Assembly: GCA_036378675.1 (NCBI GenBank)
Contig: DASUWA010000035.1
Coordinates: forward strand, 1 to 36,328
DNA from: Acidimicrobiales bacterium
GTDB taxonomy: Bacteria > Actinomycetota > Acidimicrobiia > Acidimicrobiales > Palsa-688
Reading direction: 5' to 3'
DNA: 36,328 bases
In this document: piece after piece, positions 1-24,443 of the stretch
Layout: the number at the start of each line of letters is the position of its first letter
Position numbering within the stretch: position 1 is the first letter of the stretch
Notes under the pieces: model-generated
Seen by the model: only the letters and a program-made list of their open reading frames with translations
What the model was told of the DNA's origin: nothing
The model's database searches: none
Translations under genes and position numbers: made by a program

Positions 1-2651
1 AACCGGACCAGGCCGCCCTGACCGCCGCGGCCGGCGCCAGAAACGTCCCCGTGCTCGGCATCACCGGCACCGGCGGCTCCGGCAAGTCCTCGCTCACCGA
101 CGAACTGGTCCGCCGGTTCCGCACCGACCAGCAGGACAAGCTCCGCATCGCGGTCCTGGCCGTGGACCCCACGAGACGACGCGGCGGCGGCGCCCTGCTC
201 GGCGACCGGATCCGGCAGAACGCCCTGGACGGCGAGCACGTCTTCTTCCGCTCGCTGGCCACCCGCGGCGCCCGCGAACTGCCCGACGGCATCGAGGCCA
301 TCATCACCACCGCGAAGGCCGCTGGATACGACCTGGTCATCCTGGAGACGCCCGGCATCGGCCAGGGCGACGCCGGCGTGGTCCCGCTGGCCGACGTGTC
401 CCTGTACGTGATGACCCCGGAGTTCGGCGCCGCCTCCCAGCTGGAAAAGATCGACATGCTCGACTTCGCCGGCGCGGTCGCGATCAACAAGTTCGAACGG
501 CGAGGCGGCGAGGACGCGCTCCGGGACGTTCGTCGGCAACTGGCTCGCACCGACAACTTCCCGGGAGTCGCGCGCGACGACCTGCCCGTGTTCGGCACGA
601 TCGCTTCGAGGTTCAACGACGACGGGGTCACCGCCCTCTACCGTTACCTTCTCGACCGGCTGGCGGATCTCGGGCTTCGGGTCAGCGCCGGCGTGCTCAG
701 TTCAGACCCCGGGGCGCCCGCTCGTGTCTCCTCGAAGATCCACGCGGTGGTTCCGGCCTCGAAGTCTCGTTACCTCGCCGAGGTGGCGGAGACGGTTCGC
801 GACTACCGGCAAGAGACCAAGCTGGAAGTAGAGCGTGCCCGCCGTCGTCAGCAGCTGACTTCCGCGGCTGAAGCCCTAGAAGGTGCCGGTCATGGCCAGG
901 CGGCTGATCAGGCACGAGCCCTCGCCGGCGATGCCGAGAGAGAGCTCAGCGACGAGAGCAGGACCCTGCTCGAGGATTGGCCGTCAACCGTGGAGTTGTA
1001 CGACTCCGACGATCATCGGCGGGAATCGCTGTCCGGGACGCTTGTGTCCCGAGTCGCGTTGCCGCGCTTCGAAGACGATGGAGCGTTGCTCCGGTGGTTG
1101 CGTCTCGAGCACCTTCCGGGCCGTTTCCCCTATACCGCCGGTGTCTTTCCGTTGAAGCGTGACACCGAGGACCCTGCCAGGATGTTCGCCGGCGAAGGCG
1201 ACGCCTTCCGTACCAACCGCCGTTTCAGGCTGCTTTCCGAAGGACAGCCGGCGACGAGGCTCTCGACTGCGTTCGACTCGGTGACCCTTTACGGATTCGA
1301 CCCCGATCTGCGCCCTGACATCTACGGCAAGGTCGGCAACTCGGGGGTCTCGATCGCGACGCTCGACGACATGAAGGTGCTCTACAGCGGATTCGATCTT
1401 TGCGACCCGCGGACGTCCGTCTCGATGACGATCAACGGACCCGCCCCCACGATCCTCGCGATGTTCCTCAACACCGCCATCGATGACCAACTCGCGCGCC
1501 ATCCAGAGGACGATCCGGACGAGGTTCGGGCGAGAACCTTGCGCACGATACGAGGAACCGTCCAAGCCGACATCCTCAAGGAGGACCAAGGGCAGAACAC
1601 GTGCATCTTCTCCACGGAGTTCTCCTTGCGGATGATGTCCGACATCCAGGAGTGGTTCATCGAGAACCAGGTCCGCAACTTCTACTCAGTGTCCATCTCC
1701 GGCTACCACATCGCCGAGGCGGGGGCGAACCCGATTAGTCAGCTCGCGTTCACCCTGGCCAACGGGTTCACCTATGTCGAGTCGTATATGTCCAGAGGGA
1801 TGAACGTCGACGACTTCGCGCCGAACTTCTCCTTCTTCTTCTCGAACGGGATGGACCCGGAGTACACGGTCATCGGCCGGGTAGCCCGGCGGATCTGGTC
1901 GGTTGCCATGCGAGACAGGTATGGAGCCAACGCTCGATCGCAGAAGCTGAAGTACCACATCCAGACGTCCGGGCGCTCGTTGCACGCGCAGGAAATGGCG
2001 TTCAACGACATCCGCACGACCTTGCAAGCTCTGTGCGCCATTTACGACAACGCCAACAGCCTTCACACGAACGCCTTCGATGAAGCCGTGACCACCCCGA
2101 CCGCGGACTCGGTCCGAAGGGCGCTTGCCATCCAGATGATCATCAACGAGGAGTGGGGGCTTGCCGTCAACGAGAACCCTCTGCAGGGAAGCTTCATCGT
2201 CGAGGAGCTGACCGATCTCGTCGAAGAGGCGGTTCTGGCAGAGATGGAGCGGATCAGCGAACGCGGGGGAGTACTCGGTGCGATGGAGACCGGCTACCAG
2301 CGCGGGCGGATTCAGGACGAGTCGATGCTGTACGAGCAGAGAAAGCACGATGGGTCGCTGCCGATCGTCGGGGTCAATATCTTCCGCAACCCCGCCGGCG
2401 ACGCAGTTGCGGACCAACTAGAGCTCGCTCGCTCGACCGAGGAGGAAAAAGAGAGCCAGCTACAACGGCTTGCGGCCTTCAAGGAGGCCCACGCGTCGGA
2501 GCGGCCAGAAATGCTGGTTCGACTGCAGGAGACCGCTGTCAACGGGGGGAACGTTTTCGCGGTCCTCATGGATGCAGTGCGCGCCTGCAGCCTCGGCGAG
2601 ATCACCCAGGCCTTGTTCGAAGTCGGCGGGCGCTACCGGCGCAACGTGTAG
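1..2651 (+). CDS. icmF: Fused isobutyryl-CoA mutase IcmF, 5' truncated by window edge
   Basis: Adenosylcobalamin-dependent enzyme interconverting isobutyryl-CoA and n-butyryl-CoA, with a built-in G-protein chaperone. The reading frame is open from base 3, so the B12-binding N-terminal domain lies upstream; the GTG at 51 is internal. Visible in order: a P-loop GTPase module (GTGGSGKSS at 66-92, NKFE near 486), then the mutase large-subunit domain from about 1080. The mutase part carries FPYTAGVFP and a GQN with Gln codon 1593-1595, where methylmalonyl-CoA mutases have an Arg that binds the substrate carboxylate. That supports IcmF over methylmalonyl-CoA mutase. The last residues are RRNV and TAG. 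No neighbour is clearly co-transcribed; the next gene is convergent. The first ~525 bases have much higher third-position GC than the rest (see findings). The family call is secure; exact substrate is inferred. Confidence 0.93.
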   Translation, partial: PDQAALTAAAGARNVPVLGITGTGGSGKSSLTDELVRRFRTDQQDKLRIAVLAVDPTRRRGGGALLGDRIRQNALDGEHVFFRSLATRGARELPDGIEAIITTAKAAGYDLVILETPGIGQGDAGVVPLADVSLYVMTPEFGAASQLEKIDMLDFAGAVAINKFERRGGEDALRDVRRQLARTDNFPGVARDDLPVFGTIASRFNDDGVTALYRYLLDRLADLGLRVSAGVLSSDPGAPARVSSKIHAVVPASKSRYLAEVAETVRDYRQETKLEVERARRRQQLTSAAEALEGAGHGQAADQARALAGDAERELSDESRTLLEDWPSTVELYDSDDHRRESLSGTLVSRVALPRFEDDGALLRWLRLEHLPGRFPYTAGVFPLKRDTEDPARMFAGEGDAFRTNRRFRLLSEGQPATRLSTAFDSVTLYGFDPDLRPDIYGKVGNSGVSIATLDDMKVLYSGFDLCDPRTSVSMTINGPAPTILAMFLNTAIDDQLARHPEDDPDEVRARTLRTIRGTVQADILKEDQGQNTCIFSTEFSLRMMSDIQEWFIENQVRNFYSVSISGYHIAEAGANPISQLAFTLANGFTYVESYMSRGMNVDDFAPNFSFFFSNGMDPEYTVIGRVARRIWSVAMRDRYGANARSQKLKYHIQTSGRSLHAQEMAFNDIRTTLQALCAIYDNANSLHTNAFDEAVTTPTADSVRRALAIQMIINEEWGLAVNENPLQGSFIVEELTDLVEEAVLAEMERISERGGVLGAMETGYQRGRIQDESMLYEQRKHDGSLPIVGVNIFRNPAGDAVADQLELARSTEEEKESQLQRLAAFKEAHASERPEMLVRLQETAVNGGNVFAVLMDAVRACSLGEITQALFEVGGRYRRNV

Positions 2652-2726
2652 GCGGCGTCGCGCTCGCTGGAGCGGTGGTGCGCAGCCGCCGGACTTCTGG
2701 GAGTGACTTTTGCGCTTGGGTGTGGA

Positions 2727-2749
2727 TTTAGACCCACCTGAGGTCTAAA
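2727..2749. promoter_or_regulatory. Perfect 8-bp inverted repeat, 7-nt spacer
   Basis: TTTAGACC (2727-2734) and GGTCTAAA (2742-2749) are perfect reverse complements around a 7-base spacer. The site lies between two convergent genes, which favours an RNA hairpin that ends or protects transcripts. There is no T-tract, and the shape also resembles a dimeric repressor site. Function is undecided. Confidence 0.4.
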
Positions 2750-2783
2750 GCCATGCCCAAAATCACGTGCGGGCGCCCAATAA

Positions 2784-2814
2784 GGGGCCTCGTCGCCGGG
2801 GGGGTTGGGGCCCC
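2784..2814 (-). terminator. Weak candidate terminator for the minus-strand gene
   Basis: GGGGCC (2784-2789) pairs with GGCCCC (2809-2814) across a 19-base loop. Read on the minus strand the second arm is followed by TTATT. It lies just past the stop of the minus-strand gene at 2828. The short stem and long loop make this uncertain. Confidence 0.25.
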
Positions 2815-2827
2815 GTTCGGGCAGGTG

Positions 2828-3931
2828 TTACGGCGCGACGGACATGAAGTCGGTGAAACCGGTCGGGTCGTGCCGCCCTATCGAAGCGTGCTCGAACAGT
2901 CCTAGGCCCGGCTCGCCCTCGCACATGGCGCTGGCGGCGTGGTCGATGACTCCCCAGGGGACTCGGCCGGCGATCTCGGGATCGGCGTAGTCGTAGGTCC
3001 TGAAATCGACCCACCCCGGCCCCTTCCACTGGCCGTGTGACCACTCTGGGTCGGCACCGTATCCGCTGCCGACGTGGAGCGCCTGGAAGGTCATTGTCTC
3101 AACTTCCACCACCAGCGGCCGGCCGTTGGGGGTGGTCAGATGGATGGCCGCCTTTTCGGGATGGCGGGTGCCGCTCCTGTACTGAAACTCGACCCGCGGC
3201 CAGCCGAGTTGCTCGACCGTCCCGTCGGCGAATACCCGGCGGGCGTCGTTGAGCGTCCTGTAACCGTCCGGCTGCTCCTGAAGGATCACCATGAGCGCGA
3301 AGGTCTCGAATCTCATGGGGACATACAGCCACCAGAAACCCTGGTTCGGGTTGTCTGCCTCGCGCCCGGGGGGGTCGGCATCGCCGGTCGGCCTGATTCC
3401 CCAGGACCGGTCCCGGGATCCGAGCCACCTGGACGGGTCAACCTCGATACTTTCGCCCTCGACCTCTATCGACCCCGACCAGCTCCCGAGCTGGGCGAAG
3501 CGCTGGGCGTCGAGTATCGGCCGCTGGCGACCGTTGAGCAGGAGATGCGGCTCTTCGAGGATCGACGGGAACGATCCGTCCCAGGTCAGGTCGGCGCTGA
3601 GCCGCTCGTGCTCGCAGACCAGCCGCACCTTGTGGAGGGGTTCTCGAATCTCGAGCCGCCAGCCCCCGACGTGGGGAGACAGCTCGCGGTGGTCGATTGC
3701 GTCGGAGAACCGGACGGTCCACTGCCGGTCACCTCTGCGAAGCGAGAAGAACGCGTCCTTCACGCCGACGTTGGGGTAGTAGCCACCGCCGCTGATCAGG
3801 AGGTTCTGCCCGGACTGATCGAAGGCGTTGAAATAGTTCCGGTCGTAGAAGTTCCGGTCGCTGGTGGCAACCCGCGACATCGAGAGGGGGCTTTGGTGGA
3901 TGGGGTACTCGTCCAGCGGATCAGGTAGCAC
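2828..3931 (-). CDS. Conserved actinobacterial protein of unknown function
   Basis: A 367-residue soluble-looking protein with no signal peptide or membrane segment. It is rich in aromatic residues and Trp-Gly motifs (for example a segment GFWWLYVPM), giving a beta-rich look. I recall similar uncharacterised mycobacterial proteins that begin near the motif DEYPIHQ, but cannot name a domain or reaction. The frame is open back to 4003, but the extra N-terminal residues are Gly/Pro/Arg-rich and unlike the rest. I therefore chose the GTG at 3931, a few codons before DEYPIHQ. No clear Shine-Dalgarno supports either start. It is divergent from cysD, and the shared intergenic region holds three 17-bp repeats, so the two could share regulation. 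Coding status is well supported by length and by the coherent protein; function is unknown. Confidence 0.75.
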   Translation of the reverse strand: MLPDPLDEYPIHQSPLSMSRVATSDRNFYDRNYFNAFDQSGQNLLISGGGYYPNVGVKDAFFSLRRGDRQWTVRFSDAIDHRELSPHVGGWRLEIREPLHKVRLVCEHERLSADLTWDGSFPSILEEPHLLLNGRQRPILDAQRFAQLGSWSGSIEVEGESIEVDPSRWLGSRDRSWGIRPTGDADPPGREADNPNQGFWWLYVPMRFETFALMVILQEQPDGYRTLNDARRVFADGTVEQLGWPRVEFQYRSGTRHPEKAAIHLTTPNGRPLVVEVETMTFQALHVGSGYGADPEWSHGQWKGPGWVDFRTYDYADPEIAGRVPWGVIDHAASAMCEGEPGLGLFEHASIGRHDPTGFTDFMSVAP

Positions 3932-4006
3932 GCCGTGACGATAGCCAGCCGCGTCCCGCCCGGGCCGGGGCCCGGGTCCGCCAGCCGGCACGCCCGCGAG
4001 CACAAC

Positions 4007-4057
4007 GCGGCCGAAAACCTGACGCGGCCGAAAACCTGACTTGGCCGAAAACCTGAC
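4007..4057. repeat. Three tandem 17-bp repeats upstream of cysD
   Basis: Three head-to-tail copies of a 17-bp unit: GCGGCCGAAAACCTGAC at 4007-4023, an identical copy at 4024-4040, and a third at 4041-4057 that differs only in its first two bases (TT for GC). After the third copy the sequence turns AT-rich (TAATAAAT from 4066), which looks like a -10 region. The array would then sit just upstream of the cysD promoter, where an activator would bind. I do not recognise the unit as a known operator. Confidence 0.85.
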
Positions 4058-4065
4058 TTGGTTGG

Positions 4066-4092
4066 TAATAAATCTCCGGCATCTGGGACAAT
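4066..4092 (+). promoter_or_regulatory. Candidate cysD promoter
   Basis: Two -10-like hexamers are visible. TAATAA at 4066-4071 stands out in GC-rich surroundings and would give a leader of about 20 bases. GACAAT at 4087-4092 lies exactly 6 bases before the GTG start and would give a leaderless transcript. No good -35 is seen for either, consistent with activator-dependent transcription from the adjacent repeats. Confidence 0.4.
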
Positions 4093-4098
4093 GGGGCG

Positions 4099-5009
4099 GT
4101 GACCGTCACCTACGAGCTGTCGCACCTGCGCGCCCTCGAGGCGGAGGCAGTCCACATCATCCGCGAGGTGGCGGCGACGTTCGAGCGCCCGGTGCTGCTG
4201 TTTTCCGGCGGCAAGGACTCGGTCGTGATGCTCCACGTGGCGGCCAAGGCGTTCTGGCCGGCACCATTGCCGTTTCCGGTCATGCACGTCGATACGGGAC
4301 ACAATCTTGACGAGGTCATCGAGTTCCGGGACCGGATAGTCGAGAGAATGGGCTTGCGCCTGATCGTGGCGAGCGTCCAGGACGACATTGATGCCGGCCG
4401 GGTCGTCGAGGACGAAGGACCTCGGGCGAGCCGCAACCGGCTGCAGACCAACACGTTGCTGAGAGCCATCAACGAGGGGCGCTTCGACGCGGTATTCGGC
4501 GGCGCACGCCGTGACGAGGAGAAGGCTCGTGCCAAAGAGCGCGTCTTTAGCTTTCGGGATGGTTTCGGGCAGTGGGATCCTCGACGCCAGCGCCCCGAGC
4601 TTTGGAACCTCTACAACGGCGCACACAAGAGGGGTGAGCACATCCGCGTATTCCCCCTCTCGAACTGGACGGAGCTCGACATCTGGCAGTACATCCTCGA
4701 GGAGCAGGTGGAGCTGTCCTCGCTCTACTACGCGCACAGGCGCGAGGTGTTCGAACGTGACGGGATGCTGTTGTCAATGTCTCGGTTCGTGACATTGATG
4801 GAAGGCGAGGAGCCCTTTGAGGCGACCGTGCGATTCCGCACGATCGGAGACGCAACCTGCACCGGATGCGTCGAATCCCTCGCAGCCAGCGCGGAGGAGG
4901 TAGTCACGGAGGTCGCCGCCTCGAGGCTGACCGAACGCGGCGCGACGCGTGCGGATGATCGCATCTCCGAGGCCGGGATGGAGGATCGCAAGAAGGAGGG
5001 CTACTTCTA

Positions 5010-5010
<1 letters not shown>
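4099..5010 (+). CDS. cysD: Sulfate adenylyltransferase subunit 2 (CysD)
   Basis: Catalytic subunit of ATP sulfurylase. With CysN it makes adenosine 5'-phosphosulfate (APS) from sulfate and ATP in the cytoplasm. The 303-residue length is normal for CysD. The PP-loop SGGKDS is at residues 36-41, followed by family blocks such as HVDTGHN and [15 protein letters not shown]. The GTG at 4099 is the only sensible start: the ATG at 4091 runs into a stop after three codons. There is no Shine-Dalgarno, so translation may be leaderless. The stop (TAG, 5008-5010) shares one base with the GTG start of cysNC, so the two are translationally coupled. Three 17-bp repeats lie upstream. Confidence 0.97.
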
Positions 5011-6856
<1,846 letters not shown>

Positions 6857-6860
<4 letters not shown>

Positions 6861-7633
6861 CCGTTCCCGACGTCGACTCCTCCGACGATGCAGTGCTCGC
6901 CGGGCAGCTGGCCGATCGAGCAGGTCGATTACTTCTCGAGGTCAGAGGCTCCTGGAGCGGCCCGGATCCCAAGGAGCTCGGACGGACCGGTGACCGCGAG
7001 TCGAACAAGCTGATCCTCGCTGAACTCGCTCGGATCCGGCCGGCGGATGCGATCCTGTCGGAGGAGTCGGCGGACGATTCCGGCCGGATTACGTCCGAAA
7101 GGGTTTGGATAATCGACCCGTTGGACGGCACCCGAGAGTTCACCATGCCGGGGCGCACCGACTGGGCCGTTCACGTCGCTCTGTGGGAGGCCAAGAAGGG
7201 CATCACGGCCGCGGCGGTAGCGACACCAGCGTTGAACAACCAGGTCTACGTGAGCGGGGTCGCCCATGCTCAAACCGTACGTCCCGAGCGGGCAGGTCCG
7301 TTGATCCTGGTGAGCGACAGCCGCCCTCCGGCATTCGCCGGCAAGGTTGCCGCGACGATCGGCGGACAGGTGACGCCGATGGGATCTGCGGGCGCCAAGG
7401 CGATGGCGGTCCTACGGGGCGACGCCGACGCGTACGTTCATGCAGGCGGTCAGTGGGAGTGGGACTCTGCGGCCCCCGTCGGCGTGCTCCTGGCCGCCGG
7501 GATGCACGCTTCGAGACTCGACGGCTCTCCCTTGCTGTACAACCAACCGCATCCGTATCTACCCGACCTTGTGATGTGCCGAGCCGACTTGGCGCCGGCA
7601 CTGTTAGAGGCTCTGGAAGACGAGTTGGCGTAG
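6857..7633 (+). CDS. cysQ: 3'(2'),5'-bisphosphate nucleotidase, CysQ-like
   Basis: Inositol-monophosphatase-fold enzyme of 258 residues. Metal-binding motifs are visible: Glu69-Glu70 in LSEESAD, the block DPLDGT from Asp87, and a C-terminal WEWDSAAP segment that normally supplies the last metal ligand. Overlap of its GTG start with the cysNC stop (GTGA, 6857-6860) ties it to PAPS metabolism, where CysQ hydrolyses the by-product PAP to AMP. An earlier in-frame start at 6833 would lie inside cysNC and is less likely. Activity on inositol or fructose phosphates is the alternative for this fold, but the context strongly favours PAP. Confidence 0.9.
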
Positions 7634-13291: not shown

Positions 13292-14446
13292 TCAAGGCTT
13301 GGCGGGAAGCCCCAGCTCGCGGGCGATCAGCATCCGCTGTACCTCCGAAGTTCCTTCGCCGATCTCGAGGATCTTCGCATCCCGGTAGAAACGGCCGACC
13401 GGCGTCTCGTTCATGAATCCGTACCCACCGAAGATCTGAGTCGCCTCTCGTGCGTTCAGCATGGCCGCGTCCGAGCTCACCAATTTTGCGATCGCGGCCT
13501 CTTTCTTGAACGGCTTGCCCGCCTGCAGCAGCCGGGCGGCGTACCGGTAGGCCAGCCGGGCAGTGTGGGTGCGAGCCTCCATGTCGGCGATCTTGAACTG
13601 GAGCACCTGGTATTCCGAGATCTTGTGCCCGAAGGCCTCTCTGTCATCGACGTAGCGAAGGCTCTCGTCTACGCATCCCTGAGCCAAACCAACCGACAGG
13701 GCCGCAATAGCGATTCGCCCCTCGTCCAGCGTGTTGAGGAATTGGGCGTAACCTCGGCCTCGCTCACCGAGCAGATTCGCCTGCGGCACCCGGCAGTCCG
13801 AAAAGGACAGCTCCCGCGTGTCAGAAGCGAGCCACCCCACCTTCGAGTACTTCTTCGAAACGGTGAAACCCGGTGTGCCAGACGGGACGATGATCGCCGA
13901 GATCTCCGGCCTTCGACCTTCGGTCGTCCCGGTCAGCGCGGTGATCGTGACGACAGAGGTGATGTCGGTACCCGAGTTGGTGATAAACGACTTGGTCCCG
14001 TTGATCACCCACTCAGGACCGTCGAGGCGAGCCGTCGTCCGTGTCGCACCCGCATCTGAGCCGCCGCCCGGCTCGGTGAGACCGAACGCGGCCAGCGATT
14101 TGCCCGCGCAAAGGTCGGGAAGCCAGCGCTGCTTCTGCTCCTCGGTGCCGTACCGGTAGATCGGCGTAGCGCCGAGTCCGACGCCGGCCTCCAGGGTGAT
14201 CGCCACCGACGAGTCGACGCGCGCAAGCTCCTCGAGGGCGAGGCAGAAGGCCAGATAGTCGCCCCCCATTCCGCCGTACTCCTCCGGGAAGGGAAGCCCG
14301 AACAACCCGATCTCGCCCATGCGCGCGACGAGCGAATACGGAAACTCCTCCTTCTCGTAAATCTCGCCGATCACCGGGGCGACTTCCGTGCGGGCGAAGC
14401 GCTCGACGGTGGATCGCAGCGCCTCGTGCTCGGGTGAAAGTTCCAC
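13292..14446 (-). CDS. Acyl-CoA dehydrogenase of the leucine degradation operon
   Basis: FAD-dependent acyl-CoA dehydrogenase, 384 residues. FAD and substrate blocks are clear: FGLTEPGGGSDAG, NGTKSFITNSG, and the C-terminal EIGEGTSEVQR with Glu364 at the position of the usual catalytic base. Operon position after methylcrotonyl-CoA carboxylase and HMG-CoA lyase predicts isovaleryl-CoA dehydrogenase. However, vertebrate-type isovaleryl-CoA dehydrogenases put the base in an earlier helix and lack Glu here, so this protein resembles the short/branched-chain group. Actinobacterial operons of this kind (compare mycobacterial accD1-accA1-fadE19) appear similar. GTG at 14446 lies 4 bases after the stop of the HMG-CoA lyase gene, indicating coupling. 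It is the last gene of the operon. Confidence 0.93.
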   Translation of the reverse strand: MELSPEHEALRSTVERFARTEVAPVIGEIYEKEEFPYSLVARMGEIGLFGLPFPEEYGGMGGDYLAFCLALEELARVDSSVAITLEAGVGLGATPIYRYGTEEQKQRWLPDLCAGKSLAAFGLTEPGGGSDAGATRTTARLDGPEWVINGTKSFITNSGTDITSVVTITALTGTTEGRRPEISAIIVPSGTPGFTVSKKYSKVGWLASDTRELSFSDCRVPQANLLGERGRGYAQFLNTLDEGRIAIAALSVGLAQGCVDESLRYVDDREAFGHKISEYQVLQFKIADMEARTHTARLAYRYAARLLQAGKPFKKEAAIAKLVSSDAAMLNAREATQIFGGYGFMNETPVGRFYRDAKILEIGEGTSEVQRMLIARELGLPAKP

Positions 14447-14450
14447 GTGC

Positions 14451-15404
14451 CTAGTTCTCTCTCTGTTGGCGTTCGGACGCGAGCGCTCGCACTACCCTCG
14501 ACGGACTCGGCCGGCCCAGCTGGGCGGCCATCCACTCGCTGGTTCCGATCAGCGCATCGAGATCGATCCCGGTTTGCACCCCGAGCCCGTGCAGCATCCA
14601 CACCAGGTCCTCGGTCGCCAGGTTGCCGGTTGCACTCTTGGCGTACGGGCACCCGCCCAACCCGCCTGCGGAAGCGTCAACCGTGGCGACACCGGCTTCG
14701 AGCGCGGCGAGCGTGTTCGACAACGCCTGGCCGTAGGTGTCGTGAAAGTGAACCGCCACTTGCCCCGTTTGTATCCCGGCTGAGGCGAGTGACTCCAGAA
14801 GGTCATGAACGTGGCCGGGCGTGGCCACGCCGATTGTGTCGCCGACGCTCAGCTGATCACACCCCATGTCGACCAAGCGCCGGCACACGCCGACGACCTG
14901 ACCCAATGCAACTTCTCCCTCCCACGGATCACCGAAGCACATCGAGACGTAGCCTCTGACCCACATCGCGTTTGAGCGCGCAGTTTGCACGACGGGCTCG
15001 AACATCGCCAGGGCTTCGTCGACGCTGCGGTTGAGGTTGTTCTTGGCGAAGCTCTCCGTCGCGCTCGCGAAGACCGCGATCTGAGTAGCGCCAGCCGTGA
15101 CCGCTCGTTCCAATCCGTTCGCGTTAGGTACAAGAACCGGGAAGCGCAGGTTTGCTCGCTTCGGCAGCTTCGGAAAAAGATCGTCCGCGTCGCCGAGCTG
15201 CGGAACCCACTTCGGAGATACGAAGCTCGTGGCCTCTATCACCGATAGCCCACTGGCCATCAGGCGCTCAATGAACTCGAGCTTGGTTTCGACCGACAGA
15301 GCCGCGGACTCGTTCTGGAGGCCGTCACGAGGGCCGACCTCGTACACCTCGACCGCGTGCGGCAACCCCGCCTTGGGATGTGCCGAGGGCGAGCGGAGGC
15401 TCAA
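14451..15404 (-). CDS. mvaB: Hydroxymethylglutaryl-CoA lyase
   Basis: Cleaves 3-hydroxy-3-methylglutaryl-CoA to acetyl-CoA and acetoacetate, the last step of leucine degradation. The 317-residue TIM barrel has the N-terminal EVGPRDGLQNE, the metal-binding HFHDTYGQ and the signature GGLGGCPYAKSATGN with the catalytic Cys. These separate it from isopropylmalate or homocitrate synthases. The start is TTG at 15404, chosen because TTGA overlaps the stop of the carboxylase alpha gene by 4 bases. Internal TTG or GTG codons closer to the EVGPRDG block are possible. It lies between mccA and the acyl-CoA dehydrogenase in a coupled operon. Confidence 0.95.
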   Translation of the reverse strand: MSLRSPSAHPKAGLPHAVEVYEVGPRDGLQNESAALSVETKLEFIERLMASGLSVIEATSFVSPKWVPQLGDADDLFPKLPKRANLRFPVLVPNANGLERAVTAGATQIAVFASATESFAKNNLNRSVDEALAMFEPVVQTARSNAMWVRGYVSMCFGDPWEGEVALGQVVGVCRRLVDMGCDQLSVGDTIGVATPGHVHDLLESLASAGIQTGQVAVHFHDTYGQALSNTLAALEAGVATVDASAGGLGGCPYAKSATGNLATEDLVWMLHGLGVQTGIDLDALIGTSEWMAAQLGRPSPSRVVRALASERQQREN

Positions 15405-17380
15405 GCGGGTGCCTCCTCCGTGACTTCCGCGAGCGACTGACCGAGCGATACGGACTCGCCAGGAGCGACAAGCACCCTGGTAACCGTGCCGTCCATCTGG
15501 GAAGACACGACGTGCTCCATCTTCATGGCCTCCACCGTCACCAAAGGTTGACCTGCCCGGACAGAGTCTCCGCTCTTGACATGCACCGCGAGCACGGTAC
15601 CGGGCATTGGGCTGCTCACTGGGCCCGGCCCGGTTCCCGCCGGGCCGGCGTGATCGATTGTCTCCCGTTCCATGGTGACAGTCCAGGTGTCACCGCGATG
15701 CGAGATCCAGACGCAGTCGCCTTCCGCAGCGAAGGTGATTTTCTCGAGCGAGCCGCCCATCTGCAGCTCCAAGACGTCTCCGTCGATCACCGCCCGAACC
15801 CTGACTTCTCCAGCACCCCAATCGACCGCGCCTTCTTCTCGGAGGTTGCCGGTAAGCGAAACCTCGACCGCCTCGTCGAACAGCCTCCAGCGCGACAAGC
15901 GTGGAGCGGGCCCGGCGATTCGCCATCCGTCAAGCACTTCCCACGGCCCCTTGGATTGAGCTGAGCCGATAAGTTCCGCGACGATGGCCGCAGCACCGAC
16001 CACCCATCCTTCCTCCGGCGGCGCCGCAAGGGACTCCTGAACCCGATCGACGAGGCCAGTGTCGAGCCGGCCGGAGACAACGTCGGGATCAGCCAGTAAC
16101 CGGCGCAAGAATCCGATGTTGGTGGTGACCCCGACCAAAGCAAAGTCCGCAAGGGCGTGCCGCAGCTTCGCCAACGCTTCGGTGCGGGTTGCTCCCAACG
16201 CGATCACCTTGGTGAGCATCGGGTCGTAGCCGGTGCCGACCTCACTGCTGAGCCCGATTCCGGAATCGACGCGGACTCCAGTCGCGGACGGCTCGGCGTA
16301 AACGCGGACCGTCCCGGTCGCCGGAAGGAAGCCACGGCGAGGATCTTCCGCGTAAATCCGGGCTTCCACAGAATGGCCCCGGGCCGGGGGGACAGAGCTC
16401 TGATCTGGCCATGGGAGAGCTTCGCCGGCTGCAATCCGCAGTTGGCATTCAACCAGATCGAGATCGCGCACCATCTCCGTCACCGGGTGTTCGACCTGGA
16501 GCCGCGTATTCATCTCTATGAAGAAGAATTCGTCAGGTCGATCCGCGGACACGATGAACTCGACCGTGCCGGCATTGACGTACCCGCAGGATTTCGCCGC
16601 CGAAATTGCCGCCTGCTCGATGGCTGCCCGCGTGTCGGGATCGACCGCCGGCGAGGGGGACTCCTCGACGATCTTCTGGTGACGCCGCTGGAGGCTGCAC
16701 TCTCTTTCCCCGAGTGCGACGACGCGGCCGTGGACGTCGGCAAGAACTTGGACCTCGATGTGCCGCGGCCGGTTGATGTAGCGCTCGACCAAGAGGGTTC
16801 CGTCGCCGAATGCCGCGATCGCCTCGCGCGTCGCAGCCGAGATGGCGTCCACAAGACCCTCCCGGCGGTCCACCCGGTGCATCCCCTTGCCCCCGCCGCC
16901 GGCCGACGGCTTCAGCAGAACAGGCAAGCCGATTTCTATGGCGGCCGCGGCGAGGCCGGCGTCATCGAGCGAGCGGCCGTCGCGTCCCGGCACCACCGGC
17001 ACACCCGCCTCAGAAACGAGCCGCTTCGCGTTGATCTTGTCGCCCATTGCCCTGATCGCCGACGCTGATGGCCCGACGAAAACGATCCCAGCCTGCTCGC
17101 AGGCCTCGGCCAACGCGGGGTTTTCGGACAAGAAGCCGTAACCGGGGTGGAGGGCGGCGGCTCCAGCCTCCAAGGCGGCGGAAACGACCGCGTCGACGTC
17201 GAGATAGGCGGAGCGCCCACCGATATGGATGGCCGAGTCGGCCATGCGCACATGAGGTGCATCACGGTCGGGATCGGTGTACATGGCGACCGACCTGATT
17301 CCCATCGAACGCAGAGCGTTTATGACGCGGACGGCGATCTCCCCACGGTTGGAAATCGCAGCGGACTCGAACACCGTCAC
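15401..17380 (-). CDS. mccA: Methylcrotonyl-CoA carboxylase alpha subunit (biotin carboxylase + BCCP)
   Basis: A 659-residue biotin-dependent carboxylase subunit. The N-terminal biotin carboxylase domain has [10 protein letters not shown], an ATP-grasp Gly-rich loop ([12 protein letters not shown]) and [14 protein letters not shown]. The C-terminal carrier domain has EAMKMEHVV with biotinyl Lys620. The same architecture serves acetyl-, propionyl- and methylcrotonyl-CoA carboxylases; the beta subunit and lyase next door identify it as methylcrotonyl. The frame is open to 17581 but that part lies inside the upstream gene. I chose GTG 17380, whose GTGA overlaps the beta-subunit stop by 4 bases and leads into [14 protein letters not shown]. 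Its own stop overlaps the mvaB TTG. Confidence 0.95.
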
Positions 17381-19002
17381 ATCCTGAAAACGCCGTAGCG
17401 GACCGGTTCCAGCGGGGCCTCGCCGGCAGCAGCAAGGGCCAGACCCAGCACCCGCCGCGTGTCGAGCGGGTCGATCACTCCGTCGTCCCATATGCGTGCG
17501 GTCGAGTAGTACGGATTTCCTTGCCTTTCGTACTGATCGCGGATCGGTAGCTTGAATTCCTCGACCTTTTCGTCGGACCAAGTGCTATCGCGATCGGCGA
17601 CGGTGGCAAGAACGGAGGCGGCTTGCTCGCCGCCCATCACTGAGATCCGGGCGTTGGGCCACATCCACAGAAACCGCGGCGAATACGCGCGGCCGCACAT
17701 GGAGTAGTTACCCGCTCCGAAACTCCCCCCGATGATCACCGTCATCTTCGGGACTCTTGCGCAGGCGACAGCGGTCACCATCTTGGCTCCGTGCTTTGCA
17801 ATTCCTCCGGCTTCGTAATCACGGCCAACCATGAACCCGCTGATGTTCTGGAGGAACACCAAGGGGATTGAACGCTGGTCACAGAGCTCGATGAAGTGGG
17901 TGCCTTTCAGGGCTGACTCGCTGAAGAGAACGCCGTTGTTCGCGATGACACCGACCGGATGTCCCCAGATATGCGCGAAGCCGGTCACCAGAGTGGGTCC
18001 GTATTCCGCCTTGAATTCCAGGAACCTGCTGCCGTCCACGAGGCGGGCGACGACTTCTCTTACGTCGTAAGGGGTTCGCGTGTCCGTCGGCACGACACCG
18101 TAAAGCTGATCGGCATCGACCTTCGGCTCGTCGGGATCCTGGACGTCCCACGGCGGCGCTGGGGGAGAGCCAAGCGTCGCCAGGATTGCTCGCACCATTG
18201 CCAGGGCCTGACGCTCGTCGGACGCGAGATGGTCGGTAACTCCGGAGCGGCGGGCGTGAAGATCGCCGCCCCCGAGGTCCTCCGCGGTGACTACCTCTCC
18301 CGTCGCGGCCTTGACCAGCGGGGGCCCCCCGAGGAAGATCGTCCCCTGGTTGGCGACGATGACCGTCTCGTCGCTCATCGCCGGCACGTAGGCACCACCG
18401 GCCGTCGACGAGCCAAGTACCGCTGCGATCTGCGGAATCCCGGTGGCCGACAGATTGGCCTGGTTGTAAAAGATCCTGCCGAAGTGGTCTCTATCCGGGA
18501 ACACCTCGTCCTGGGCGGGGAGGAAGGCCCCACCCGAGTCGACCAGGTAGATGCAGGGCAGACGATTCTGCGACGCAATCTCCTGAGCCCTGAGGTGCTT
18601 CTTCACCGTGATCGGGTAATAGGTCCCGCCCTTCACGGTCGGGTCGTTCGCGACTATCACGCACCGTCGCCCGGAGACCATCCCTACGCCGGTGATTACC
18701 CCCGCGCCGGGAGACTCGTGTCCGTACATCCCGTTCGCGGCGAGAGGGGACAGTTCCAGGAAGGGTGAGCCGGGGTCGAGAAGGTGCTCGACGCGGTCTC
18801 GCGGGAGCAGCTTGCCCCGGTCGGTGTGTCTTCGCCTCGAAGCCTCGGGCCCCCCGAGGGCTGCCACTCTGAGCTTCTCCCTCAGATCGGCCACCAGCCC
18901 GAGATGCGAAGCGGTATTCCGGCGGAACTCCTCGGAAGCCGTGTCAGCGGACGTGTGCAGCACGGGGAACTCTCGAGCGGCGGTGAAGGTGGCCGTGGTC
19001 AT
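17377..19002 (-). CDS. mccB: Methylcrotonyl-CoA carboxylase beta subunit (carboxyltransferase)
   Basis: Transfers the carboxyl group from biotin to 3-methylcrotonyl-CoA in leucine breakdown. The 541 residues match MCC beta length. Diagnostic blocks are [30 protein letters not shown], given here only as the region near residues 150-185, then [21 protein letters not shown] and [16 protein letters not shown] with [20 protein letters not shown]. These are far closer to MCC than to propionyl-CoA carboxylase. ATG 19002 is the first gene of the operon; TAACAT 9 bases upstream is a likely -10. It overlaps mccA by 4 bases. It diverges from an acyl-CoA synthetase across 94 bases. Confidence 0.96.
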
Positions 19003-20651: not shown

Positions 20652-20657
20652 TAACCT
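20652..20657 (+). promoter_or_regulatory. -10 hexamer before the VIT-kinase-vWA-PP2C operon
   Basis: TAACCT exactly 6 bases before the ATG at 20664, just after the stop of the acyl-CoA synthetase. The spacing fits a leaderless start and would make the four downstream genes a separate transcription unit. Confidence 0.45.
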
Positions 20658-20663
20658 GATGGC

Positions 20664-21407
20664 ATGTCTGCCCTCAGCACCGTCTCTGCTTTCTTGACGG
20701 GCCGGGACCCACGACGGCTGACCCGCCATCGCAACGTCCAGGCGGGTGGCGCGAGGGCCGCCGTTCTCGGTGCGGGCGACGGGTTACTGACCAACGTTTC
20801 ACTCGTGCTCGGTGTCGCGGGCGCGTCCCCGGGTGCTTCCACCGTGCGGCTAGCGGGAGTCGCCGGGCTTCTCGCCGGCGCCTTCTCGATGGCCGCCGGG
20901 GAACTGGTGTCTGTCCGCGCTCAGCATGAGCTCACACAGCGGGAGCTGCAGATCGAGCGCCAGGAGCTGGCGGACGAGCCTGAAGCGGAGAGGCGCGAGC
21001 TTGCCGGCATGTTCCGCGCCAGGGGGCTTTCGCAAACAGATGCGGACACCGTTTCCCGGATTCTGTCGGCCAACGACGCCGTCGCGTTCGACACCCACGC
21101 GCGGATGGAGCTGGGCATCGATCCGAACGCGGCGGGGACCGCCGAACGAGCAGCGGTTCTGTCGTTTATCTCTTTCTCGATCGGGGCGCTGCTGCCACTG
21201 TTTCCCTGGTTCTTCGCCAGCGGCACCGCCGCGGTGACATCATCGGTTGTCATCGGCGCCACTGCCGCTCTCGCCCTGGGGGCGATGATCGGCGCGCTGG
21301 CTGGGCGAAGTATCCCCCAGTCCGCACTTCGCCAGCTCGTCGTCGCGATCGTCGCTGCGGGGATCACCTTCGGAGTCGGGAACCTCCTCGGGGTCTCAAC
21401 CACGTGA
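20664..21407 (+). CDS. VIT/CCC1-family metal transporter
   Basis: A 247-residue membrane protein of the vacuolar iron transporter family, which moves Fe(II) or Mn(II) out of the cytoplasm. The first helix block GAGDGLLTNVSLVLGVAGA and the second SMAAGELVSVRAQHEL are family hallmarks. The Glu-rich cytoplasmic segment (about residues 88-130, ERQELADEPEAERRELAGMF and onward) corresponds to the metal-binding domain between helices 2 and 3. Three further hydrophobic helices follow. Its TGA overlaps the GTG of the kinase gene by 4 bases (GTGA, 21404-21407), so the two proteins are probably made together. Such coupling to a signalling triad is not something I know to be described. Confidence 0.93.
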   Translation: MSALSTVSAFLTGRDPRRLTRHRNVQAGGARAAVLGAGDGLLTNVSLVLGVAGASPGASTVRLAGVAGLLAGAFSMAAGELVSVRAQHELTQRELQIERQELADEPEAERRELAGMFRARGLSQTDADTVSRILSANDAVAFDTHARMELGIDPNAAGTAERAAVLSFISFSIGALLPLFPWFFASGTAAVTSSVVIGATAALALGAMIGALAGRSIPQSALRQLVVAIVAAGITFGVGNLLGVSTT

Positions 21408-22930
21408 CCGAAGCTCCCCGGTCCGTGCCGCCGTCGTTGCCGCGGGAGGCGATCCGGGTGGGCGAACTGCTTGCGGAAGGTGGGGAGGGTCGGGTCTTCG
21501 AACTTCCGCTGCATCCGCACCTGGTTTTCAAGGAGTACCGCCACCGGGCGAACCACGCCCACCTCGAGGACCTGGTTGGCTGGCCCGAATCCGGCGATCC
21601 AGATCTGATCGGAAGGGTGCGGTCTTCGACGTCCTGGCCCGGTTCAGTCGTCGAGCGCGGCGGCTCCAGTGGCGGCCGCTCCCGAGACGCGATCGGGGTG
21701 CTCGTCGCGAGGGCGCCGCGCCGGTTTTCGGTCCGTCACCGAGACGGCTCCACCCGACTCGCCACGCTCAGCTACCTGACTGCCGATCCGGCTTACCGGG
21801 AAGTGGCCTATGGCTTGTCTCTTCCGGCTTCCTTCGGCGCCGAGCGCCTGGGCCTGGTTTACGCCCTCGCCCGTGTTCTCGAGGCTTTCGACCGGTTGGA
21901 ACCGCGCGTCGGCCACGGCGACCTTTCGTCCAAAAACGTCCTGTGGTCGATGCAGAGGGGGCCTGAAGTCTTCCTGATCGACTGTGACAACTGCGAGCGA
22001 TACGGAGCGGACGGTCGAAGTTTGAGCGTCGAAGGTCGCCGGCGGGCGATGACTCCGAACTGGGATGACCCTGCCGTTCCTCCCGGCGGAAACCCGGCTC
22101 TCACGTCGGACCGGTACTCGTTGGCGCTGATCTTCCTTCGTGTCGTCGGCGCGGCGAACTTTCCCGTTCAAGCGCGGCAGAGGCAGGGCGGGTCGATCAG
22201 CATCGACTTCCCTATTCCTCCCGGGTTCGCAGGGGAGGTGCTTCTCGGACCGGCGTCGCCCTTGTGGGCCCTGTGCGCGCGTGGGCTCAGCACGGAGCTG
22301 CCGGAGAGCCGTCCGGCGCCGACCGAGTGGGTGGCCGCTCTTGAAGCGGTGCTGGACGGGCTGGGCGCGGCGGGCATGCTGCACTCCGTCTGGTCGGCCC
22401 AGGGCGGTGGTCCGGTTCGGGCAGCCGTACCCCAGCCGCGGGTAAGCATGGATAGCTGTCGCTCCGACGATGGTCGTACCGATGTGCCAACCGACGTGAC
22501 CGTTCGCCCGGTCGTGGCTTCAGTGCACCATCCACGGCCTGCCCGCCTCGTGGTCAAGACTGGTTCGTCCGACCCGTCCGGTGGGTTGACAAGAAGGTCC
22601 ACCTCGGGCGGGACTGGTCCTACGCAGAGCTCATCTGCGGCCGCCCGCGGTTCGAGCCCGCCCGGATCGGTGACACGCCAGAGCACGACGCCGGCCGGCT
22701 CGGTGCGGGCGGACCCAGCCATGGGGCAGATCTCTGCCGGGCTCAGGATCGCGCTGCAGTGGTGGCTCGACGCCCATCGTCTGCTGGTCCGTGGCATCGC
22801 GGGCCAGGGAAGCGCTGGTGCGGGTGAGAATGTCCAACGACTCGCGTTGTGCGCCGCGGTTGACCTCGCAGTCGCGGCGTTCGGGTTGTTCCTGGTGGCG
22901 ATGGCGGTGGCTCCGTTCCTCGGGATCTAG
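21404..22930 (+). CDS. Protein-kinase-like protein with C-terminal membrane anchor (TerY-P triad kinase)
   Basis: A 508-residue protein. The kinase-like domain (about 15-320) has a Gly-rich loop EGGEGRVF, a likely ATP-binding Lys43 (VFKEY), the catalytic loop HGDLSSKN at His171 with Asp173, and LIDCDN with Asp193 in place of the DFG motif. From about 345 to 460 runs a low-complexity Ser/Thr/Pro/Gly linker. The last ~27 residues are strongly hydrophobic and would anchor the protein by its tail, kinase domain in the cytoplasm. The following two genes encode a vWA protein and a PP2C phosphatase, the set predicted by Anantharaman, Iyer and Aravind as the TerY-P triad. GTG 21404 overlaps the VIT stop. 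Activity is inferred; the altered DFG leaves a weak or atypical kinase possible. Confidence 0.82.
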   Translation: MTEAPRSVPPSLPREAIRVGELLAEGGEGRVFELPLHPHLVFKEYRHRANHAHLEDLVGWPESGDPDLIGRVRSSTSWPGSVVERGGSSGGRSRDAIGVLVARAPRRFSVRHRDGSTRLATLSYLTADPAYREVAYGLSLPASFGAERLGLVYALARVLEAFDRLEPRVGHGDLSSKNVLWSMQRGPEVFLIDCDNCERYGADGRSLSVEGRRRAMTPNWDDPAVPPGGNPALTSDRYSLALIFLRVVGAANFPVQARQRQGGSISIDFPIPPGFAGEVLLGPASPLWALCARGLSTELPESRPAPTEWVAALEAVLDGLGAAGMLHSVWSAQGGGPVRAAVPQPRVSMDSCRSDDGRTDVPTDVTVRPVVASVHHPRPARLVVKTGSSDPSGGLTRRSTSGGTGPTQSSSAAARGSSPPGSVTRQSTTPAGSVRADPAMGQISAGLRIALQWWLDAHRLLVRGIAGQGSAGAGENVQRLALCAAVDLAVAAFGLFLVAMAVAPFLGI

Positions 22931-22935
22931 CTAGC

Positions 22936-23655
22936 GTGACCCTGGATATGACTTCCGCCAACGTCAGCGTCGAGGAGCGGTACGCCGTCTTTCCGTTCTA
23001 CCTGTGCCTCGACGTCTCCGCATCGATGTCCGGAGCCCCGATCGACAGCGTCAACAAGGAGCTCCCGATTCTCCGGTCCAGCGTGGGGGAGGACCCCGCG
23101 ATCGCGGAGGTCATCCGGTTCGGGATCATCACCTTCAGCGACGTCGCCCACACCGTCCTCCCGTTGTGCGATCTGAGCTTGGTGGAGGCGATCCCGGAAG
23201 TGTCAGCTCAGGGGCGAACGTCCTACGCGGCGGCCTTCGATCACCTGCTTCAGCAGATCGAGTCGGACTACCAAACGAGCCGTGCGGGAGGTGACAAGTG
23301 GTACCGGCCCGCGGTCGTGTTCATCTCGGACGGAAGGCCGACCGACGACCCGGAGCGGTGGAGAGCCGCGCTCGCCCGGCTCACCGACCCGTCCTGGAAA
23401 CGCCACCCGAACATCCTTGCGTTCGGCTTCGGGGACGCCGACCCGGCGATCCTCACAGAAGTTGCCGGAACGAAGCCCAACCGGGCGTTCATTGCCGACG
23501 AAGGCTCGCCGCCGAGCCGTGTGGTTCCGGAGCTCATATCTGGTCTCATCCAGTCGATCGTCAGCTCCTCGGCGAGCGTTTACACCGGGTCGGCACAGCT
23601 CGTCGTCCCCGAGTTGCCGAGCATGAACGCGATTCCTGTCGACCCCCTCGACTGA
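22936..23655 (+). CDS. TerY-like von Willebrand factor A domain protein
   Basis: A 239-residue single vWA domain without signal peptide. The metal-ion-dependent adhesion site is complete: DVSAS at Asp26-Ser30, Thr95 in GRTSY, and Asp132 in ISDGRPTDD. The closeness to TerY shows in PFYLCLDVSASMSG and in the IPEVSAQGRTSYAAAF region. TerY-like proteins are thought to act as metal-dependent scaffolds in stress signalling. The GTG at 22936 lies 5 bases after the kinase stop; ATG 22948 is an alternative start four codons in. A PP2C gene follows after 8 bases. Together with the kinase it forms the predicted phospho-switch. No other Ter gene (TerB, TerC, TerD) is in the window. Confidence 0.88.
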   Translation: MTLDMTSANVSVEERYAVFPFYLCLDVSASMSGAPIDSVNKELPILRSSVGEDPAIAEVIRFGIITFSDVAHTVLPLCDLSLVEAIPEVSAQGRTSYAAAFDHLLQQIESDYQTSRAGGDKWYRPAVVFISDGRPTDDPERWRAALARLTDPSWKRHPNILAFGFGDADPAILTEVAGTKPNRAFIADEGSPPSRVVPELISGLIQSIVSSSASVYTGSAQLVVPELPSMNAIPVDPLD

Positions 23656-23663
23656 CTGCTCGA

Positions 23664-24443
23664 TTGGCTGTCGACCCACTGGTGCTCGGGCGCCCCTCCT
23701 CGGCTGCCGAAAAGGAACCCAGACTCGCAGCTCACGGGGACGCTTCTGAAGCCCTGTACCGCGCAGCGGGCGGGTCGACCGAATGGTGCACCCTTCGGGC
23801 CGCGAGCGTGGCCGGGGTTAGGCACCGCCTCGCCGGCGAGCCCAGCGAGGACAGCTACGCCTGGTCAGCCGGCAAGGAGAGGCTGGCCTTAGCTGTTACG
23901 GACGGCCTGGGTTCCGTCGACGGGTCGCGACAGGCCGCAACTGCTGCCGCCAGAACGGCCGTTGAGGTCGCCGTCGGGGACGCCGACGACCCGGTAGTCG
24001 CAGGTGTACGTGCGGCCAACCAAGCCTGCACCGGGGGAGGGGCGACGACTCTCGTGCTCGCGGTCGTGGAACGCGACGGTCGGGTGGAAGTCGCGCGGGT
24101 GGGCGACAGCACGGCTCTTCTTGTTCAGTCAGACGGGGCGACATGGAAAGACCTGTTCCGGGCCGCGGCCGACGACGACGAAACCGTCGACGTCAGCACC
24201 GCCGCCCTGCCTGCCGACGACCCTCAAACGGAGCGCACGTCCCTGAACTTGACGCCAGGCGAGGTTCTCGTGCTCGCGAGCGACGGCATCGGGGATCCTT
24301 GGCGAGATGGCCCGACAACTGTGGCGCCTGCATTCGCAGCGCTGTTTGCCGCCCGCCCGGCACCGTTGGAGCTCGCGCGGATGGCCGACTTCTCGCGGCA
24401 GGGCTGCCATGACGACCGGACAATCGTCCTGCTGTGGTTATGA
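23664..24443 (+). CDS. PP2C-type protein phosphatase (TerY-P triad)
   Basis: A metal-dependent Ser/Thr phosphatase of about 259 residues. All metal-ligand motifs are present: Asp63 in EDSYAW, Asp80-Gly81 in TDGLGS, the core GGGATTLVLAVV and VARVGDS, Asp207 in SDGIGD, and Asp250-Asp251 in CHDDRT. It should therefore be active and would reverse phosphorylation by the kinase two genes upstream. No ATG lies near the 5' end. I chose TTG 23664, 8 bases after the vWA stop; GTG 23682 is equally possible and no Shine-Dalgarno decides. The frame stays open far upstream inside the vWA gene, but that part is a shadow. It is the last gene of the operon; the next gene is convergent. Confidence 0.87.
   Translation: MAVDPLVLGRPSSAAEKEPRLAAHGDASEALYRAAGGSTEWCTLRAASVAGVRHRLAGEPSEDSYAWSAGKERLALAVTDGLGSVDGSRQAATAAARTAVEVAVGDADDPVVAGVRAANQACTGGGATTLVLAVVERDGRVEVARVGDSTALLVQSDGATWKDLFRAAADDDETVDVSTAALPADDPQTERTSLNLTPGEVLVLASDGIGDPWRDGPTTVAPAFAALFAARPAPLELARMADFSRQGCHDDRTIVLLWL

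Follow-up and report, generated by a model that had tools for sequence, protein, structure and literature searches.

A VIT-family transporter gene, a gene for a kinase of the protein-kinase fold, a stand-alone TerY/YegL-like vWA gene and a PP2C phosphatase gene follow one another in a 36,328-nucleotide stretch of DNA from an Acidimicrobiales bacterium (contig DASUWA010000035.1 of assembly GCA_036378675.1; hereafter the window), whose plus strand is that of source contig C35 of genome G000. Judged from their sequence, the four genes are probably one leaderless transcription unit, and the interpretation we lean towards, with somewhat more confidence than doubt, is that the last three encode a partner-changing phosphorylation switch that is coupled here to the VIT transporter. 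In the window's family (Palsa-688), VIT is a conserved but exchangeable partner of this triad. Because close relatives attach the same triad to a metabolic enzyme, it looks like a general-purpose switch and not like a dedicated metal sensor. This corrects the initial annotation of the window, which had inferred that the vWA protein senses or binds divalent metal: dehydrogenase-linked triads weaken the idea of a metal device, and the link to metal is one of two alternatives. With the same triad tied to either of two assayable proteins, the family also allows a clean test of whether triads of this kind target their neighbours.

Layout, start box and proteins of the four-gene unit

The gene order, the coordinates (Table 1), the 4-base overlap between VIT and kinase (GTGA at 21404-21407) and the gaps of 5 bases between kinase and vWA and of 8 bases between vWA and PP2C agree with the initial annotation when read from the open reading frames (ORFs) of the window. 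The last two starts are uncertain. The vWA protein of L040 begins at the residue matching the window ATG at 22948, with which the gap would be 17 bases, and the PP2C protein of L041, from an automated start, begins at the residue matching the window GTG at 23682, with which it would be 26. Across the family, VIT and kinase genes overlap by 4 bases in 6 of the 12 loci with settable starts, and in the other six 3 to 78 bases separate them; the automated kinase starts of L052 and L054 are wrong and did not enter the gap figures.

A probable promoter had been placed 6 bases before the first ATG, and the box TAACCT indeed ends 6 nt 5' of the VIT ATG at 20664. In actinobacteria, TANNNT shortly before a start codon is a leaderless promoter pattern. 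Under a rule by which each gene may choose among its candidate starts, 10 of 15 triad-linked VIT genes, from seven of nine genera, have TANNNT 6-7 nt in front of such a start, and the box is scarce in the controls scored by the same rule (kinase 0/24, vWA 2/26, PP2C 0/23, unlinked VIT 3/17). The test was run without L048, whose VIT is cut, and without matches starting beyond query residue 40, and its rows include close relatives (L063, L064). As the box precedes VIT and not the inner genes, the four genes look like one unit. Among the dehydrogenase genes read, the box was present in none of 10 triad-linked and in five of nine unlinked cases. A generic sigma-70 promoter scan found no promoter. 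An iron-regulator box before VIT was considered and rejected: CCTAACCT in the window, which we take to resemble an iron-regulator half-site, is by eye not kept in L040, L062 and L067.

The AlphaFold2 model of the kinase has a mean predicted local distance difference test score (pLDDT) of 81.0, and its best matches among solved structures are protein kinases (Foldseek E 7e-10; VIA Z 19.7, root-mean-square deviation 3.7, 265 residues aligned). It carries a GGEG loop, K43, G172-D173..N178 and D193/D195, which we take to be the kinase motifs usually named at these places, and all 19 kinase rows compared share K43, G172-D173-L174-S175, N178, D193 and D195. The reading as an aminoglycoside phosphotransferase was dropped since the Pfam APH match (E 5.5e-4) is below the curated cut-off and the predicted fold is that of a protein kinase. 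A sequence search of the PDB with the kinase gave no match, and plasmid records gave two weak ones. The C-terminal part of the protein consists of a low-confidence linker followed by a hydrophobic helix at about 480-507 according to hydropathy, and a hydrophobic C-terminal stretch was seen by eye in 17 kinase rows of the family, VIT- and dehydrogenase-linked alike. The kinase is thus predicted to be membrane-anchored via its C-terminal helix. The initial annotation had proposed a membrane anchor of the kinase as a novelty; the prediction stands, and the novelty does not, as membrane-anchored kinases of this kind are already described in the available portions of PMC7159879 and PMC13232886.

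In the vWA protein the residues of the metal ion-dependent adhesion site (MIDAS), D26-S28-S30, T95 and D132, are invariant in 10 of 10 rows. An intact MIDAS is general for vWA domains and hence no evidence of metal sensing. Plasmid matches of the vWA protein are annotated as TerY-C domain proteins and share 28-29% identity with it. Six Asp residues of the PP2C protein (D63, D80, D148, D207, D250 and D251) are invariant in 9 of 9 rows.

Partners of the triad within the family

The family sample comprises 32 genomes, 26 of which contain the vWA gene, including all 12 with a completeness of 90% or more and a contamination of 5% or less. In 16 of these 26 genomes, which represent nine genera, the gene immediately before the kinase is VIT; the kinase gene of G105, G213 and G216, three of these 16, is divided over two contigs. 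The four-gene order, whose recurrence in relatives the initial annotation had named as a check, is thus not confined to the genome of the window. Its view of VIT as the triad's partner holds in part: VIT is the conserved first gene across nine genera, but it is not the defining partner, since in 9 of the 26 genomes, from four genera that form a sister clade, a 2-hydroxyacid dehydrogenase gene (PF02826) is found directly upstream of the kinase instead. The dehydrogenase-linked loci form one clade in the vWA tree (99/100). One genome outside the 26, G215, has the dehydrogenase followed by the kinase at a contig end (L103) and no vWA match. Both partners are widespread, VIT occurring in 29 of the 32 genomes and dehydrogenase homologues (E 1e-10, paralogues included) in 31. 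As VIT-type genomes carry homologues of the linked dehydrogenase elsewhere, at 52-65% identity, and dehydrogenase-type genomes carry VIT elsewhere, the difference between the two types is the place of the triad.

The surroundings of the unit vary. The nearest called gene above VIT is of seven kinds in 14 loci (Table 1), a tally that leaves out the genes above the VIT of L044, and the gene below PP2C varies too, being a DUF3817, Ppx/GppA or PEP carboxylase gene. Both outer flanks change while VIT and triad stay together, an argument that the four-gene unit has been kept as such.

These patterns would fit the switch that we favour. The last three genes would encode a switch based on reversible Ser/Thr phosphorylation, similar in kind to YegI/PphC/YegL and TerY-P, in which the kinase is tethered to the membrane by its C-terminal helix, PP2C reverses its phosphorylation and the stand-alone MIDAS vWA protein recruits or gates the client or the kinase. 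Such a switch would be a module that changes its upstream partner, with VIT in part of the family and the 2-hydroxyacid dehydrogenase in the sister clade, and its coupling to VIT would have outlasted several changes of flanking genes. Joint production of VIT and the switch might reflect a need for metal export in the condition that the switch serves, perhaps acid or iron stress, a guess taken from the name of the relative Acidiferrimicrobium (L053).

Several observations weigh against this interpretation. The start box is absent from 5 of the 15 linked VIT genes (L043, L044, L079, L053, L054). The VIT label requires two changes in the vWA tree, which does not settle which arrangement is older, and the linked label requires three changes in the VIT tree. 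Retention of VIT may also be plain vertical inheritance. Alternatively, the triad could have landed behind VIT in one ancestor and behind the dehydrogenase in another, borrowing their transcription with no functional tie. In favour of this, the triad has two upstream partners that are unrelated to each other and joined to it about equally closely, and both VIT and dehydrogenase do occur in the family away from the triad. In L051 and L059 the dehydrogenase gene overlaps the kinase gene by 4 bases; elsewhere a few to about 200 bases lie between them, depending on the start chosen; since these loci show similar tightness, a tight gap was dropped as an argument for a functional link. Likewise, 126 of 148 genomes of the order carry VIT (E 1e-20), and a triad gene was found in the flank of none of 25 VIT loci from other families of the order; among 28 newly read VIT loci of the order, only L131, from the window's family (G137), has one. 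G214 has the triad, with neither VIT nor dehydrogenase within the 249 bp that can be seen ahead of its kinase; this genome, 83% complete, gave no VIT match at all. As VIT and triad have nevertheless been kept together across nine genera while both outer flanks changed, we regard a mere passenger as unlikely.

Some of the loci read depart from the layout of the window. In L046 an opposite-strand Gfo/Idh/MocA dehydrogenase gene (4004-5200) is located between the kinase and vWA genes, and in L068 two kinases surround one vWA and one PP2C gene (1753-5806). In L043, where no PP2C match was found, a short opposite-strand ORF 3' of the vWA gene is followed by a gene whose match to a Cas12f1-like TNB is weak (5728-7242; 27.6 bits, cut-off 26.3).

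Table 1 Features of the four-gene unit in the window and kinds of gene found above VIT in the family
Feature	Locus	Positions	Strand	Basis
TANNNT -10-like box TAACCT, probable leaderless promoter of the four-gene unit	window	20652..20657	+	start-box counts in relatives
VIT-family transporter gene, 247 aa	window	20664..21407	+	PF01988 E 1.7e-57; phmmer to VIT1 6iu3 E 5.2e-21; signature columns
Protein-kinase-fold kinase gene, 508 aa	window	21404..22930	+	AlphaFold2, Foldseek, VIA, invariant columns, hydropathy, hhalign to YegI
Stand-alone TerY/YegL-like vWA gene	window	22936..23655	+	PF00092 E 2.8e-12, MIDAS, YegL match
PP2C phosphatase gene	window	23664..24443	+	PP2C_2 PF13672 E 1.2e-16; invariant Asps; PphC hhalign
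Acyl-CoA ligase above VIT (4 loci)	window, L062, L067, L040			L040 by last residues
Inositol phosphatase above VIT (3 loci)	L064, L063, L093			L064 Pfam; L063 and L093 same ORF pattern
Amidase above VIT (2 loci)	L049, L052			
MFS above VIT (2 loci)	L043, L066			
PucR-type regulator above VIT	L079			
Thiolase-like gene above VIT, about 1 kb off	L053			
Carboxyltransferase above VIT	L054			

Signature of the triad-linked VIT transporters

The VIT protein of the window passes the curated cut-off of PF01988 (195.1 bits vs 28.1) over domain positions 2-213 of 214 and, like VIT1 (6iu3), represents the family at full length. From this membership we assume it to be an Fe/Mn transporter. E98, E109, E112 and E149 of its cytoplasmic domain are invariant in 14 rows and are presumably metal-binding, by analogy with residue roles in plant VIT. 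A VIT-like membrane domain, that of MbfA, acts in iron efflux according to the accessible part of PMC7762939.

Linked and unlinked VITs of the family, 15 of each, differ by residue class in nine columns, a class being required in at least 90% of the linked and at most 20% of the unlinked proteins. The linked set is 15 of 16, as L048 is cut at the Ser135 region; L118 and L119 do not count among the unlinked set, and L092, a second and distant VIT of the window's own genome, is in the VIT tree and not in the start-box or signature counts. The only Ser/Thr among the nine columns is Ser135, which we take to be situated in the cytoplasmic domain between the helices; all 15 linked VITs have this Ser, and all 15 unlinked ones have Met. 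In 27 further VITs, column 135 holds Met (20), His (5) or Ser (2). Two further features are common to linked VITs: Asp/Glu126 and, at position 148, a hydrophobic residue in place of the Glu/Asp of the other VITs read. Outside the family, some of the nine columns do not set linked copies apart, with R111 being Arg in 22 of the 27 further VITs.

Ser135 gives a defined candidate site to a sharper version of what the initial annotation had proposed, namely that the kinase would phosphorylate and PP2C dephosphorylate VIT itself, likeliest at Ser135, and so gate metal export. Since 11 of the 15 unlinked VITs come from genomes with a dehydrogenase-linked kinase, Ser135 goes with linkage and not with the mere presence of the kinase, and the same scan on the dehydrogenase (10 linked vs 9 unlinked) gave no Ser/Thr column. 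On the other hand, the contrast derives from few independent lineages and Ser135 may be one historical change, the sister clade has the same kinase without an adjoining VIT, and the unlinked VITs of the linked type are split, with Ser in the G202 copy (L118) and Met in the G200 copy (L119). We therefore consider VIT as a direct client rather unlikely, and Ser135 a candidate phospho-site that is a lead rather than a proof. A fuller version, in which VIT is gated at Ser135 by its own co-transcribed, membrane-tethered kinase and PP2C, the vWA protein is a metal-loaded adaptor and the sister-clade dehydrogenase is an alternative client, appears improbable to us. Partner exchange weakens any metal-specific mechanism, which survives as a minority reading.

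The two VITs L118 (10876-11640) and L119 (12144-12812) group with the triad-linked type in the VIT tree, and in both genomes, each 68% complete, the triad follows the dehydrogenase. They may be leftover or acquired copies.

Relation to known triads and occurrence outside the family

The triad has counterparts in known systems. The initial annotation had related the triad to TerY-P, and this relation extends to YegI/PphC/YegL of E. coli, where the same three protein types are encoded in one locus. The vWA protein is 32% identical to YegL over 162 aa (BLASTP E 3e-22), and hhalign pairs the kinase with YegI (prob 97.1) and PP2C with PphC (prob 93.8), for which plain BLASTP is marginal (E 0.001 and E 0.003, respectively). 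All three proteins are thus homologous to the E. coli set, kinase and phosphatase remotely and by profile. The E. coli locus differs in its order, yegL-pphC-(yegJ)-yegI, in the adjoining HSP70 gene yegD and in having no VIT, and the window kinase (508 aa vs 648 in YegI) aligns with YegI over the kinase part alone. In the portion of PMC13232886 at hand, YegI is a membrane-bound Ser/Thr kinase that is dephosphorylated by PphC, and the role of the pair is unsettled. An HSP70 gene also adjoins a triad of kinase, vWA and PP2C genes found in a different family of the order (G861; L129 205-4558, L113 3675-6986), comparable to yegD beside yegI.

TerY-P combines a TerY-like vWA protein, a PP2C and a Ser/Thr kinase with a zinc ribbon, in a module found beside different partner systems, and its role as a metal switch is a hypothesis, as described in the accessible part of PMC11090510, which cites Anantharaman et al. 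2012 for the triad. By sequence, the window resembles it in its TerY-like vWA protein with intact MIDAS, the PP2C in the same unit and the kinase-fold protein, but the kinase ends in a linker and a putative hydrophobic helix instead of a zinc ribbon/OB fold, with two Cys after residue 330. No Pfam match to TerY-C was found in the window triad. That no other Ter gene lies nearby is borne out for TerD, the one Ter family searched for, which is found in 0 of 32 family genomes and, as a control, in 2 of the 14 named genomes. The window neighbours scanned, a part of the ORFs, contain no Ter or restriction/processing partner and comprise metabolic and cell-wall genes and one DUF3817 gene.

A further related theme is that of the actinobacterial GAP1-N2 GTPase systems, in which, following the available text of PMC7159879, a kinase with a zinc ribbon or transmembrane (TM) helices adjoins PP2C and stand-alone vWA genes. 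The likeness lies in the actinobacterial origin and the TM-helix kinases beside these two genes, the difference in the partner, which at the window locus is VIT. A GAP1 protein was not recognised among the window ORFs scanned, which are not all ORFs, and no search aimed at GAP1 was made; the GTPase domains seen in the window belong to IcmF and a sulfate-assimilation gene. That same text of PMC7159879 contains neither 'VIT' nor 'iron transport'. Literature searches, which most subscription papers lie outside of, returned no published link between VIT and the triad. Neither the triad nor its anchoring in the membrane is new in kind; the coupling to VIT is new as far as these searches tell.

The triad is rare outside the window's family at the cut-offs used. 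The kinase profile matches 9 of 395 genomes of the class, five of them in the family, and the vWA profile at E 1e-25 matches 5 of 396 genomes of the phylum, the window's own included. Nine of ten remote triad loci encode all three proteins (L116 has the vWA protein only), and a VIT match was found in none of the ten within the stretch examined around each.

Around the unit in the window, the acyl-CoA ligase gene upstream of VIT ends at 20647, and PP2C is followed by a DUF3817 gene on the opposite strand and then by Ppx/GppA and penicillin-binding protein genes. Further off, acyl-CoA dehydrogenase, HMG-CoA lyase-like, biotin carboxylase and carboxyltransferase genes on the minus strand (13292-19002) resemble a leucine or acyl-CoA degradation cluster. 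Rfam gave no match in the window, and PADLOC gave weak matches only on its proteins (mad6 E 0.0043, PP2C E 0.012), which were not taken as a defence assignment. A possible defence setting is seen in a Microbispora metagenome-assembled genome (L060 3141-9667), where genes for a BrxC/D-family ATPase and a DEAD-box helicase come after a vWA-PP2C-kinase triad. In L114 (1675-9548), another of the remote loci, the triad is located 3' of the gene for a large FtsK/SpoIIIE protein that carries an FHA domain and might serve the kinase as a phosphothreonine reader.

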